In this document: positions 10,303 through 18,434 of the stretch, piece by piece
Position numbering within the stretch: the first letter of the stretch is position 1
Layout: each line of letters opens with the position of its first letter
Assembly: GCA_002256995.1 (NCBI GenBank)
Contig: NCGX01000015.1
Span: 1 to 57,023 of the forward strand
Direction: 5' to 3'
DNA: 57,023 nt
DNA from: Hydrogenophilales bacterium 16-64-40
GTDB lineage: Bacteria; Pseudomonadota; Gammaproteobacteria; Burkholderiales; Thiobacillaceae
Program-made: the position numbers and the translations under genes
Notes under the pieces: generated by a model
What the model was told of the DNA's origin: nothing
Seen by the model: the letters and a program-made list of their open reading frames with translations, nothing else
Databases searched by the model: none

Positions 10303-11271
10303 ATGCACAACACCTTACCCCTTCTGCAGGCAACGGACTTTCCCGCGCTGCGCCGCGGCCGCCTCGTCACCCTGCAGGTCAATCTGGGCTACCGCTGCAA
10401 CCAGGCCTGCCTGCACTGCCACGTCAACGCGGGGCCGAACCGCACGGAGGCGATGGACGACGCCAACGTGGAACGCATCCCGCACGTGCTGGCGGCGCGC
10501 AGGCTCTCCACGCTGGACCTCACCGGCGGCGCGCCGGAACTGCATCCGCGGTTCCGCTGGCTGGTGCGCGAAGCGCGGGCGCTGGGTGCGCGAGTGATCG
10601 ACCGCTGCAATCTCACCATCCTGTCCGAGCCCGGCCAGGACGACCTGGCCGATTTCCTCGCCGCGCAGGGCGTCGAGGTCGTGGCCTCGCTGCCGTGCTA
10701 CCTCGAGGAAAACGTCGACGGGCAGCGCGGCAAGGGAGTGTTCGAGCGCAGCATCGCCGGCCTCCGGCAGCTCAACGCCCTGGGCTACGGGCACACGGGC
10801 AGCGGGCTGAATCTGAACCTGGTCTACAACCCGCTCGGGGCCAGCCTGCCGCCGGCCCAGGCCGGCCTGGAGGCCGCCTACAAGCAGGAACTGCACGCCC
10901 GCTACGGCATCGTCTTCAACCGGCTCTACAGCCTGGCCAACATGCCCATCATGCGCTTCGGCAGCACGCTGGTGTCGAAGGGCGAATTCGCCGGCTACAT
11001 GCAGCTGCTCAAGTCCAGCCACAACCCCGACAACCTCGAACAGGTCATGTGCCGGGAGCTGGTCAGCGTGGACTGGCGCGGGCGTCTCTACGACTGCGAC
11101 TTCAACCAGATGCTGGGACTGCCCCTGCCCGGGGCGGCCACGCTGGCCGACCTGCTGGTCCGGGAGGTGAGCGGACAAGCCATCCGGATCGCCGACCACT
11201 GCTACGGCTGCACCGCAGGCCAAGGCAGCAGTTGCGGCGGCGCACTGGCCGAAGCGGAAGGCCAGACGTGA
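10303..11271 (+). CDS. arsS: ArsS-type radical SAM protein (rSAM/Cys-rich, DUF3641)
   Basis: The 322-residue protein has the radical SAM cluster motif CNQACLHC (Cys32, Cys36, Cys39) after LQVNLGYR, then LDLTGGAPELHP. The C-terminal Cys-rich DUF3641-type domain ends in CYGCTAG...SSCGGAL (Cys300, Cys303, Cys311). This is the ArsS family, proposed to add the 5'-deoxyadenosyl group of SAM to methylated arsenic in arsenosugar synthesis. It was first described as a radical SAM protein linked to selenoprotein-type domains; no in-frame TGA is present here. The start gives the usual short lead before the SAM motif; an ATG at 10267 would add 12 residues. It overlaps the next gene as GTGA. Confidence 0.88.
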   Translation: MHNTLPLLQATDFPALRRGRLVTLQVNLGYRCNQACLHCHVNAGPNRTEAMDDANVERIPHVLAARRLSTLDLTGGAPELHPRFRWLVREARALGARVIDRCNLTILSEPGQDDLADFLAAQGVEVVASLPCYLEENVDGQRGKGVFERSIAGLRQLNALGYGHTGSGLNLNLVYNPLGASLPPAQAGLEAAYKQELHARYGIVFNRLYSLANMPIMRFGSTLVSKGEFAGYMQLLKSSHNPDNLEQVMCRELVSVDWRGRLYDCDFNQMLGLPLPGAATLADLLVREVSGQAIRIADHCYGCTAGQGSSCGGALAEAEGQT

Positions 11272-12734
11272 GCCGCTGGAAAAAACCGAGCCGCTTCGAG
11301 CGCAATCTGGTGGTGATCGGCGCGGGCTCGGCCGGGCTGGTGACGGCCTATATCGCTGCTGTGCTCAAGGCGAAGGTCACGCTGATCGAGAAGCACCGGA
11401 TGGGAGGCGACTGCCTCAACACCGGCTGTGTGCCGTCGAAGGCGCTGATCCGCTCGGCGAAATTCCTGTCGCAGGTGGCGCGCGCGAAGGAATTCGGCAT
11501 CCGCGAAGCCCATGCCGAATTCGATTTCGCCGACGTGATGGCGCGCGTGCAGCGCGTGGTGCAGGCGATCGAACCGCACGACTCGGCCGAGCGCTACAGC
11601 GGCCTCGGCGTCGAGGTGATCGCAGGCACGGCGAAGCTCGTGTCGCCCTGGGAAGTGGACGTCGTCCGCCAGGATGGCAGCACGCAGCGGCTGAGCACGC
11701 GCAGCATCGTCATCACGGCAGGCGGGCGCCCCTTCGTGCCGCCGATCCCGGGCATCGAAGAAACGGGCTATCTCACCTCCGACACGGTGTGGGCTATGCG
11801 CGAATTGCCACGGCGTCTGGTGGTGCTGGGCGGCGGGCCGATCGGCGCCGAACTGGCCCAGGCCTTCGCCCGCTTCGGCGCCAGGGTGACGCTGATCCAG
11901 CAGGGGCCGCGCATCCTCAACCGCGAAGACCCGGAGGTGTCCGAACTCGTGAGCCGACGCTTTCGCGACGAGGGCATCGACGTGCGGGTCGAACACCAGG
12001 CGAAGCAGTTCCTGGTCGAAAACGGCGAGAAGGTCCTGGTCGCCGAACACGGCGGCCGCGAGGTGCGCATTCCCTTCGACGCCGTGCTGGTCGCCGTCGG
12101 CCGCGCCGCCAACCTGACAGGCTACGGGCTGGAGGAACTGGGCGTGAAAACGTCGCGCACGGTCGGCACCAACGCCTTCCTGCAGACCAACTACCCGAAC
12201 ATCTACGCGGCGGGGGACGTCGCCGGGCCGTTCCAGTTCACCCATACCGCCGCGCATCAGGCCTGGTATGCGGCGGTCAACGCCCTGTTCGATCCGTTCA
12301 AGAAATTCAAGGCCGACTATTCGGTGATCCCGTGGGCGACCTTCGTCGATCCGGAAGTGGCGCGCGTCGGCCTCAACGAGCAGGAGGCGAAGGAGAAAGG
12401 CATTCCTTTCGAGATCAGCCGCTACGACCTCGCCGAACTCGATCGCGCGATCGTCGATGCCGAGGCGCACGGCTTCGTCAAGGTGCTGACCGTGCCGGAC
12501 AAGGACAAAATTCTCGGCGTGGCCATCGTCGGCGAACATGCCGGTGACCTGATCGCCGAATACGTGCTGGCGATGAAGCACGGCATCGGGCTCAACAAGA
12601 TCCTCGACACGCTCCACATCTATCCGACGCTGGCGGAAGCCAACAAGTACGCCGCCGGCGTGTGGAAGAAGGCGCATGCGCCGGAAAGACTGCTGCGCTG
12701 GGTCGAGCGCTTTCATGCCTGGAGACGGGGTTGA
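11268..12734 (+). CDS. Mercuric-reductase/lipoamide-dehydrogenase-like flavoprotein
   Basis: This 488-residue class I pyridine nucleotide-disulfide oxidoreductase has an FAD-binding VIGAGSAGLVTAY, the redox-active pair in GGDCLNTGCVPSK (Cys49, Cys54), the NAD(P)-binding VVLGGGPIGAELAQ and an FAD-binding IYAAGDVAGP. The C-terminal dimer domain ends with IYPTLAEANKYA, where lipoamide dehydrogenases have the catalytic HxxPT/HAHPT His-Glu region. It lacks the N-terminal HMA domain and the C-terminal vicinal cysteine pair of classical MerA, so mercury reduction is not implied. Its fixed place in the ArsS cassette suggests thiol/arsenic or selenium redox chemistry, but the substrate is unknown. The GTG start overlaps the arsS stop. 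Confidence 0.85.
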   Translation: MSRWKKPSRFERNLVVIGAGSAGLVTAYIAAVLKAKVTLIEKHRMGGDCLNTGCVPSKALIRSAKFLSQVARAKEFGIREAHAEFDFADVMARVQRVVQAIEPHDSAERYSGLGVEVIAGTAKLVSPWEVDVVRQDGSTQRLSTRSIVITAGGRPFVPPIPGIEETGYLTSDTVWAMRELPRRLVVLGGGPIGAELAQAFARFGARVTLIQQGPRILNREDPEVSELVSRRFRDEGIDVRVEHQAKQFLVENGEKVLVAEHGGREVRIPFDAVLVAVGRAANLTGYGLEELGVKTSRTVGTNAFLQTNYPNIYAAGDVAGPFQFTHTAAHQAWYAAVNALFDPFKKFKADYSVIPWATFVDPEVARVGLNEQEAKEKGIPFEISRYDLAELDRAIVDAEAHGFVKVLTVPDKDKILGVAIVGEHAGDLIAEYVLAMKHGIGLNKILDTLHIYPTLAEANKYAAGVWKKAHAPERLLRWVERFHAWRRG

Positions 12735-17444: not shown

Positions 17445-17462
17445 GGTGATTCCCGAATAGGG

Positions 17463-18434
17463 TCAGGGCGGATTGGCGCCTTCCGCCGGCCAGCCTTGTG
17501 CGCGCCACGCCGTCATGCCGCCCTGGATGACCTGGACATCGGCGAAACCGGCCTCGGCCAGCAGCCGCGCTGCCTGGGCGGAACGGCGGTCGGTGCGGCC
17601 GAGCAGGCGGATGGGCCGCTGCCTGAAGTCTTCCAGCTCGGCCAGCCGATCGGCCAACTCATCGAGCGGGATATTGCGCGCGCCGGCGATGTGCTCGCCG
17701 ACGAATTCGGCGGCGGGACGCACGTCCAGCATCAGCACTTCGTCGCCGGCATCCAGTTGCTGCTTCAGCGACGCCACGCCCAGCATGGGCTTTTCGCGCA
17801 GCTTGCGCACGAAGCGCGGCAGGAAGGCCACGGCAGCGAGCAGCGCGAGCGCAATCAGAATGTTGCGGATCATGCCCTCGCCGCCGGCCAGCGCCTCGCG
17901 TCCGGCGTAGCCGAGCCAGGTGTAGGCGAAGGCGCCGGGCAGCATGAACACCCAGGAGGCCAGCACATAGGCGAGGAAGGGTATGCGGGTGAGGCCCAAG
18001 GCGTAGTTCAGCAGGTTGAAGGGGAACAGCGGCACCAGGCGCACGAAGGCGACAAAGCGCCAGCCCTCCGATGTCACGCCGTCATTCAGGCGCTGCAGGC
18101 GCGGCCCGGCGCGGCGCGTGACCCAGTCGGCGCCCAGGTAGCGGGAGATGAGGAAGGCCAGTGAGGCACCGAGGGTGGCGCCGCTCAGGTTCCACAGCGT
18201 GCCCCAGACGGGGCCGAACAGGGCGCCGCCGGCAAGCGTCAGCACCGAACCGGGCAAAAACAGCACGGTGGCCAGTGCATACAGGGCCATGAACACGAGC
18301 GGCCCGGCGGCACCGGCGCCTTCCACCCAGGCTTGCAGGGCGGCGGCATCGAAATGCTCGCGCAGGGCGACGGCCGCGCCGACCGCCGCCAGCAGGACCA
18401 CACCCAGCAGGATGCGCAGGACCGTCTTGTTCAT
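17463..18434 (-). CDS. VTT/TVP38 membrane protein fused to a rhodanese-like domain lacking its cysteine
   Basis: Residues about 1-210 are a TVP38/TMEM64 (VTT, SNARE-associated/DedA-like) membrane domain, with LFLPGSVLTLAGGALFGPVWG and FVRLVPLFPFNLLNYALGLTR. Residues about 215-318 are a rhodanese fold (VLMLDVRPAAEFVGEHIAGARNIPL ending in IQGGMTAWRAQGWP, quoted here as two separate segments). The active-site loop reads LLGRTDRRS, where active rhodaneses have a Cys; residue 279 is Gly (GGC), one base from TGC. Sulfur transfer by this domain is therefore unlikely, and it may bind or sense ligands. It precedes arsM by 18 bases. Confidence 0.85.
   Translation of the reverse strand: MNKTVLRILLGVVLLAAVGAAVALREHFDAAALQAWVEGAGAAGPLVFMALYALATVLFLPGSVLTLAGGALFGPVWGTLWNLSGATLGASLAFLISRYLGADWVTRRAGPRLQRLNDGVTSEGWRFVAFVRLVPLFPFNLLNYALGLTRIPFLAYVLASWVFMLPGAFAYTWLGYAGREALAGGEGMIRNILIALALLAAVAFLPRFVRKLREKPMLGVASLKQQLDAGDEVLMLDVRPAAEFVGEHIAGARNIPLDELADRLAELEDFRQRPIRLLGRTDRRSAQAARLLAEAGFADVQVIQGGMTAWRAQGWPAEGANPP

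Follow-up and report, generated by a model that had tools for sequence, protein, structure and literature searches.

Bacterial arsenosugar genes are known as sets comprising ArsM and ArsS and marked by the families TIGR04167, TIGR04282 and TIGR04283, and selenoneine is made through the successive action of SenC, SenB and SenA (PMC9814287). A fusion of an NDH-type oxidoreductase with the selenophosphate synthetase SelD has also been published (PMC2398784, PMC2432076, PMC4561486). Excerpts of one account describe a CxxC motif in Ndh-SelD, in agreement with the protein treated here (PMC2398784), and passages of a later study predict that its activity is retained (PMC4561486). Here, we describe a locus at which genes of these kinds meet, at positions 10,303 to 18,434 of contig NCGX01000015.1 of Hydrogenophilales bacterium 16-64-40 (assembly GCA_002256995.1), the whole 57,023-nucleotide (nt) stretch analysed being called the window. 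With moderate confidence, we read this locus as an arsenosugar-type operon abutting a displaced, constrained SenC-type selenophosphate synthetase, that is, as two neighbouring metalloid pathways, and the operon and the fusion probably serve separate products.

Four plus-strand genes form the arsenic-related part of the run. The first encodes an ArsS-type radical SAM protein (10303..11271) with a CX3CX2C motif (CNQACLHC in the translation) and a Cys-rich DUF3641 domain, which scores 456 bits with TIGR04167 (cut-off 300) and 185 bits with PF12345. It is followed by a FAD/NAD(P) disulfide oxidoreductase resembling MerA and lipoamide dehydrogenase (FADox, 11268..12734), a GT2-fold transferase of an arsenosugar-associated family (12731..13408, TTG start; TIGR04283, 265 bits, cut-off 182), and a DUF2064 or CofC-like transferase of another such family (13405..14025; TIGR04282, 199 bits, cut-off 134; PF09837). 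Overlaps of 4 nt join these genes (GTGA at 11268, TTGA at 12731 and ATGA at 13405, read by eye with start codons of our choice). The flavoprotein reaches 511 bits with NF004991 (cut-off 620) and 383 bits with the MerA model, below its cut-off of 454, so "MerA-like" is correct and "MerA" would be wrong. Structure (PDB) searches with ArsS and GT2 gave weak matches only. Judged from sequence, the four genes are an arsenosugar-type operon of known kind, and the assignment of ArsS, GT2 and DUF2064 to arsenosugar formation in the initial annotation agrees with the NCBI family names.

The fusion gene (14076..16358, plus strand) starts 50 nt past the DUF2064 stop, close to it and without overlap; the single tightly overlapping run first proposed therefore holds for the four genes above and not for the fifth. 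Its 760-amino-acid (aa) product combines a FAD oxidoreductase at residues 11-382 (TIGR03169, 523 bits, cut-off 310) with a selenophosphate synthetase at residues 416-722 (TIGR00476, 288 bits, cut-off 125), and the CxxC active site of the latter is shared by the window fusion and 118 of the 119 fused rows of the alignment. The SelD part retains the equivalents of the functional positions Cys17, Lys20, Asp51, Asp91 and Asp227 (E. coli numbering). Values of pN/pS between 0.22 and 0.34 indicate purifying selection, and the fusion is intact and constrained. Membership of TIGR04369 (fusion_not_SelD) was rejected, the score being 492 bits against a cut-off of 700.

The genome that contains the window (G000, with the window as contig C24) is well supplied with selenium genes. 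SenA, a canonical SelD and EgtD lie side by side on C38, SenB on C9 and MnmH on C8, whereas the window itself lacks SenA, SenB and EgtD. On C64, SelA adjoins SelB (475 bits, cut-off 242), FdhE, tRNA-Sec and the alpha subunit of formate dehydrogenase-N (1526 bits, cut-off 814), in which a UGA is read through within the motif VUHGP. Canonical SelD, SenA, SenB, SelA, SelB, MnmH and the others each exceed their family cut-off; the genome thus holds the genes for selenocysteine, selenouridine and selenoneine, along with a canonical SelD that could serve all three. The window fusion is the second SelD of the genome. An explanation of the fusion by the absence of another selenophosphate donor was rejected, because the canonical SelD was found, and for the same reason the three pathways have no strict need for the fusion. 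The initial annotation had set a normal selenium pathway accounting for selD against its proposal of a new product, and on the gene side such pathways are largely what the genome holds. As an account of the fusion they go only part of the way: the canonical SelD could serve them instead, and the closeness of ArsS to the fusion, described below, is well above that of control genes.

Co-occurrence was assessed across 370 genomes sampled from the whole class, with match thresholds of E 1e-60 for TIGR03169 and SenB and 1e-80 for ArsS, and with open frames of at least 640 aa counted as fused. TIGR03169 was found in 58 genomes (54 above the cut-off), 44 of which have an open frame that could encode the whole fusion; SenB was found in 23 genomes and ArsS in 192. 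SenB was present in 22 of the 44 genomes with the fusion versus 1 of 326 without it (one-sided p 3e-22 in a Fisher test that treats genomes as independent, though they are not), and in the sole SenB genome without a fusion (G150) NDH is unfused and a canonical SelD adjoins SenB. Neighbouring genes were surveyed at the best 80 of 348 fusion loci, which are hence kin of the window, with flanks of up to 10 kb (complete in 46 loci). SenB occurred in 44 of these loci, SenA in 30, EgtD in 22 and ArsS in 11 (in 8 of the 46 with complete flanks), and SenB or SenA was near the fusion in 47. Homologues were identified by bit-score thresholds in tblastn, and those neighbour genes that were checked with family models, a subset, lay above NCBIfam cut-offs.

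Fifty of the 80 genomes, hand-chosen and mostly Betaproteobacteria, were also tested for SenB and for other SelD genes (E up to 1e-30); as they are largely drafts, absence here means not found. SenB was detected in 43. The fusion was the only SelD found in 20 genomes, 14 of which had SenB and, among the other six, five had MnmH, which is consistent with an active selenophosphate synthetase whose main link is to selenoneine. In the sampled Beta- and Gammaproteobacteria, the NDH-SelD fusion and selenoneine genes thus show a strong link. Near the fusion and SenB in one locus (L165, 13414-16414) lies a putative selenate ABC transporter with a TIGR04553 binding protein and PhnC- and PhnE-like parts, and similar genes recur in many other fusion loci. 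At five loci (L118, L125, L136, L140 and L146), a VTT gene and a MerA-like flavoprotein gene lie about 0.1-6 kb upstream of the fusion and no ArsS was found, hinting that genes for selenium, and not only those for arsenic, are linked to this flavoprotein.

Gene orders in relatives suggest where the fusion came from. EgtD-SenA-SenB-fusion is found in L093, with no ars genes in its 12.8 kb, and in L098 and L099, where ArsS-FADox-GT2-DUF2064 and an ATP-grasp gene precede it; shorter versions are EgtD-SenA-fusion in L095 and EgtD-fusion in L094 and L106. In the window, in genome G032 (locus L101) and in G006, the fusion stands alone directly after DUF2064, with no sen genes. We infer that EgtD, SenA and SenB were lost from the window locus rather than never present there. 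Tree placement and synteny put the SelD part of the window fusion in a lineage found in sen clusters; the tree was built by a quick method with duplicate rows included, one sequence (L075) dropped as too short, and eight long-branched fused rows uncertain in placement. The window and G032 are sisters in the ArsS tree (support 100/98), yet the window fusion falls outside a supported group (96) that contains the G032 fusion. Synonymous differences between the two loci amount to 11-13% for ArsS, FADox and DUF2064, 30% for GT2 and 38% for NDH-SelD, and the nucleotide profile likewise drops in similarity over the fusion. Given the discordant trees and divergences, the cassette is mosaic, and one or both of the genomes probably had the fusion exchanged, although it stands directly after DUF2064 in each. 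The DUF2064 genes of this pair have an unusually high pN/pS of 0.74. ATP-grasp-like genes recur near DUF2064, EgtD or sen genes (L098, 4846-6189; L099, 4755-6071; also L164, L166 and L202), and G032 carries a second ArsS (contig C1:134219-135130) besides that of its window-like cassette.

Under the reading of two neighbouring pathways, ArsM would methylate As(III), ArsS would attach a 5'-deoxyadenosyl group, and the GT2 and DUF2064 transferases would complete the sugar, as the chemistry of their families suggests. The fusion would be a displaced SenC-type enzyme, originally of a selenoneine (sen) cluster; reduction of a selenium species to selenide would probably fall to its NDH part, and selenophosphate synthesis to its SelD part. 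This selenophosphate would enter a shared supply on which SenB/SenA, SelA and MnmH draw, their genes lying at other sites in the genome, and the canonical SelD could do the same work.

Several observations weigh against this reading. The position of Asn87, reported as essential in E. coli SelD in the excerpted part of one study (PMC4210487), is occupied by His in the window and in all 119 fused rows, with an Asn one residue upstream in 112 of the 119; this family-wide change at the active site means that activity of the fusion is presumed. SenB is missing from 22 of the 44 fusion-bearing genomes of the class, which means that being a SenC is not the fusion's whole role, and in the window's own genus SenB was seen in 35 of 36 genomes and the fusion in only 4, indicating that the genus does not depend on the fusion for selenoneine. 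The fusion occurs in 6 of 60 relatives, all six of which have ArsS, although in two of them (G038 and G051) no ArsS was found within about 9 kb of the fusion and no fusion near ArsS. Class-wide, ArsS is present in 34 of 44 genomes with the fusion versus 158 of 326 without it (one-sided p 2e-4). In addition, 11 of the 80 loci have ArsS no more than 10 kb from the fusion, at gaps of 0.2 to 8.9 kb, whereas the control genes AlaS, MoxR, T2SSE, T2SSF, secretin, NtrC and DUF1415 are near it in 0 or 1 locus, the single positive (L101) being truly syntenic with the window. This closeness and the enrichment of ArsS make pure accident unlikely. In the ArsS tree, the label of adjacency to the fusion requires about eight changes, at least four of them forced by well-supported branches (the "not adjacent" label of G004 and G008 is unsure, as their contigs are short), which means that the neighbourhood arose, vanished or persisted several times; in two genomes of one genus (G163 and G268), ArsS, fusion, SenB and SenA all lie within 10 kb. 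Finally, two genomes of the window's genus carry an unfused NDH in the slot of the fusion, in the order DUF2064-NDH-ArsM (G016, L211 3045-4190; G029, L212 3460-4605; TIGR03169 422 and 412 bits, cut-off 310).

Such unfused genes open the tentative possibility that the oxidoreductase half, rather than SelD, is what some cassettes keep: the cassette would use NDH, for example for reduction of an arsenic species or electron supply, SelD would be a passenger, and the fusion would have replaced an unfused NDH. Besides the slot shared by G016 and G029, unfused NDH genes adjoin ArsS in G248 and G355, are close to FADox in G123, G150 and G375, and stand in or beside ArsS cassettes at L219 (7759-8847) and L221 (3054-4169). 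We regard this explanation as doubtful, because 10 of 15 unfused NDH loci examined hold no cassette gene and only 2 adjoin ArsS, because SenB or SenA is so often near the fusion and the SelD active-site residues are retained, and because the cassettes at large lack NDH. The last point comes from 40 ArsS loci taken at intervals down the score-sorted, capped list of the 192 ArsS-positive genomes (flanks of at least 5 kb on both sides in 25, at least 8 kb in 20), where the neighbours were GT2 in 26, DUF2064 in 24, ArsM in 13, VTT in 12 and FADox in 11, and NDH (at least 75 bits), SelD, SenA, SenB and EgtD were near none. The same count led us to reject the idea that SelD belongs to the core of the arsenosugar cassette.

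The initial annotation proposed that SelD may supply selenium for an arsenic- or selenium-containing sugar, which our results do not support. In this scenario, the fusion would give selenophosphate to the cassette and GT2 or DUF2064 would act as the selenium transferase, yielding a selenium-containing arsenosugar or a selenosugar. It is suggested by the adjacency of the fusion and the cassette on one strand, by the recurrence of ArsS-fusion closeness above control rates in several ArsS lineages, and by the position directly after DUF2064 in the window, G032 and G006, although the window and G032 copies differ in history. However, the usual partners of the fusion are SenB and SenA, and no sampled ArsS cassette contains SelD. 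The fusions adjacent to ars genes form no distinct lineage: on the fusion SelD tree this label needs 9 changes for 10 rows, and as few arose in 102 of 500 shuffles, so that a dedicated arsenic-type fusion lineage was rejected. Of the 14 checked genomes in which arsenosugar genes lie close to the fusion, 13 contain SenB and the 14th MnmH, so no new selenium sink is needed. In 9 of the 11 ArsS-positive loci, a gap of 2.4-8.9 kb separates ArsS from the fusion without direct contact (0.2 kb in L114, and 3.5 kb in L101, which has the window's arrangement), and the known selenium transferase, SenB, belongs to another family and lies on another contig. A selenium-containing arsenosugar is thus conceivable and not needed, and we consider it unlikely. 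If true, some Thiobacillus-type bacteria would make a metabolite with both arsenic and selenium, or a selenosugar via GT2 or DUF2064, and shared chemistry would have left its trace in the recurring combination of ars and sen genes.

Still another explanation, which we hold to be very unlikely, is a metalloid island without a shared product, brought together by joint transfer or by co-regulation under arsenic or selenium stress, in which the fusion raises selenophosphate under arsenic. Combined ars and sen loci (L098, L099, L109, L166, G163 and G268) and the mosaic gene histories are in keeping with it, as is a near-perfect palindrome upstream of arsS that could be an operator (10069-10099; two 15-nt arms, 93% complementary to each other and 1 nt apart), located between arsS and a divergent MoxR gene. 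Against it, no regulator gene was identified beside the run and a simple sigma-70 scan found no promoter, both weak tests. The reading of an arsenosugar-type operon beside a displaced SenC-type enzyme is retained, with the tempting arsenic-selenium product set apart from what the data show; what merits further study and an explanation is that genes of the selenoneine and arsenosugar pathways recur as neighbours.

Facing the plus-strand run, as first annotated, are two minus-strand genes, arsM (16401..17444; arsenite S-adenosylmethyltransferase) and, 18 nt upstream of it, a gene for a VTT (membrane) and rhodanese protein (17463..18434; PF09335 88 bits, PF00581 64 bits). ArsM aligns over nearly its whole length with its closest solved structure, the arsenite methyltransferase 5evj (E 7.6e-104), and the functional Cys of all four motifs are conserved; it fails the general arsenite methyltransferase model NF008823 (164 bits, cut-off 263) and the "exception"-type arsenosugar-ArsM model NF038099 (98 of 400 bits). 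All seven genes were found at the coordinates first given and match their claimed families far beyond chance, the "MerA-like" label included. Elsewhere in the window (23988-32505), genes for a sigma-54 regulator, an AAA ATPase, a secretin, a TPR protein, an MshEN-T2SSE ATPase and T2SSF form an operon like those of MSHA pili or type II secretion. Rfam and tRNA scans of the window gave no matches.

Searches of the open-licence literature, a body without most subscription journals, found no paper naming both selenoneine and arsenosugars, none treating both pathways among the papers listed in a broader search, and none joining arsenosugar, arsM and Thiobacillus. Compared with the published NDH-SelD proteins (PMC2398784, PMC2432076, PMC4561486), the excerpts of which mention no arsenosugar or selenoneine neighbour genes, the window fusion has the same domain order and a Cys-type SelD with CxxC. 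Like described arsenosugar gene sets, the window has clustered ArsS, GT2 and DUF2064 genes above cut-off, but it differs in the adjoining NDH-SelD fusion and in an opposite-strand ArsM that fails the arsenosugar-ArsM model. With the selenoneine cluster of SenA, SenB, SenC and EgtD, it shares a fusion that is the SelD beside sen genes in many relatives, and it differs in that SenA, grouped with EgtD beside the canonical SelD, and SenB lie on contigs of their own, away from the fusion.

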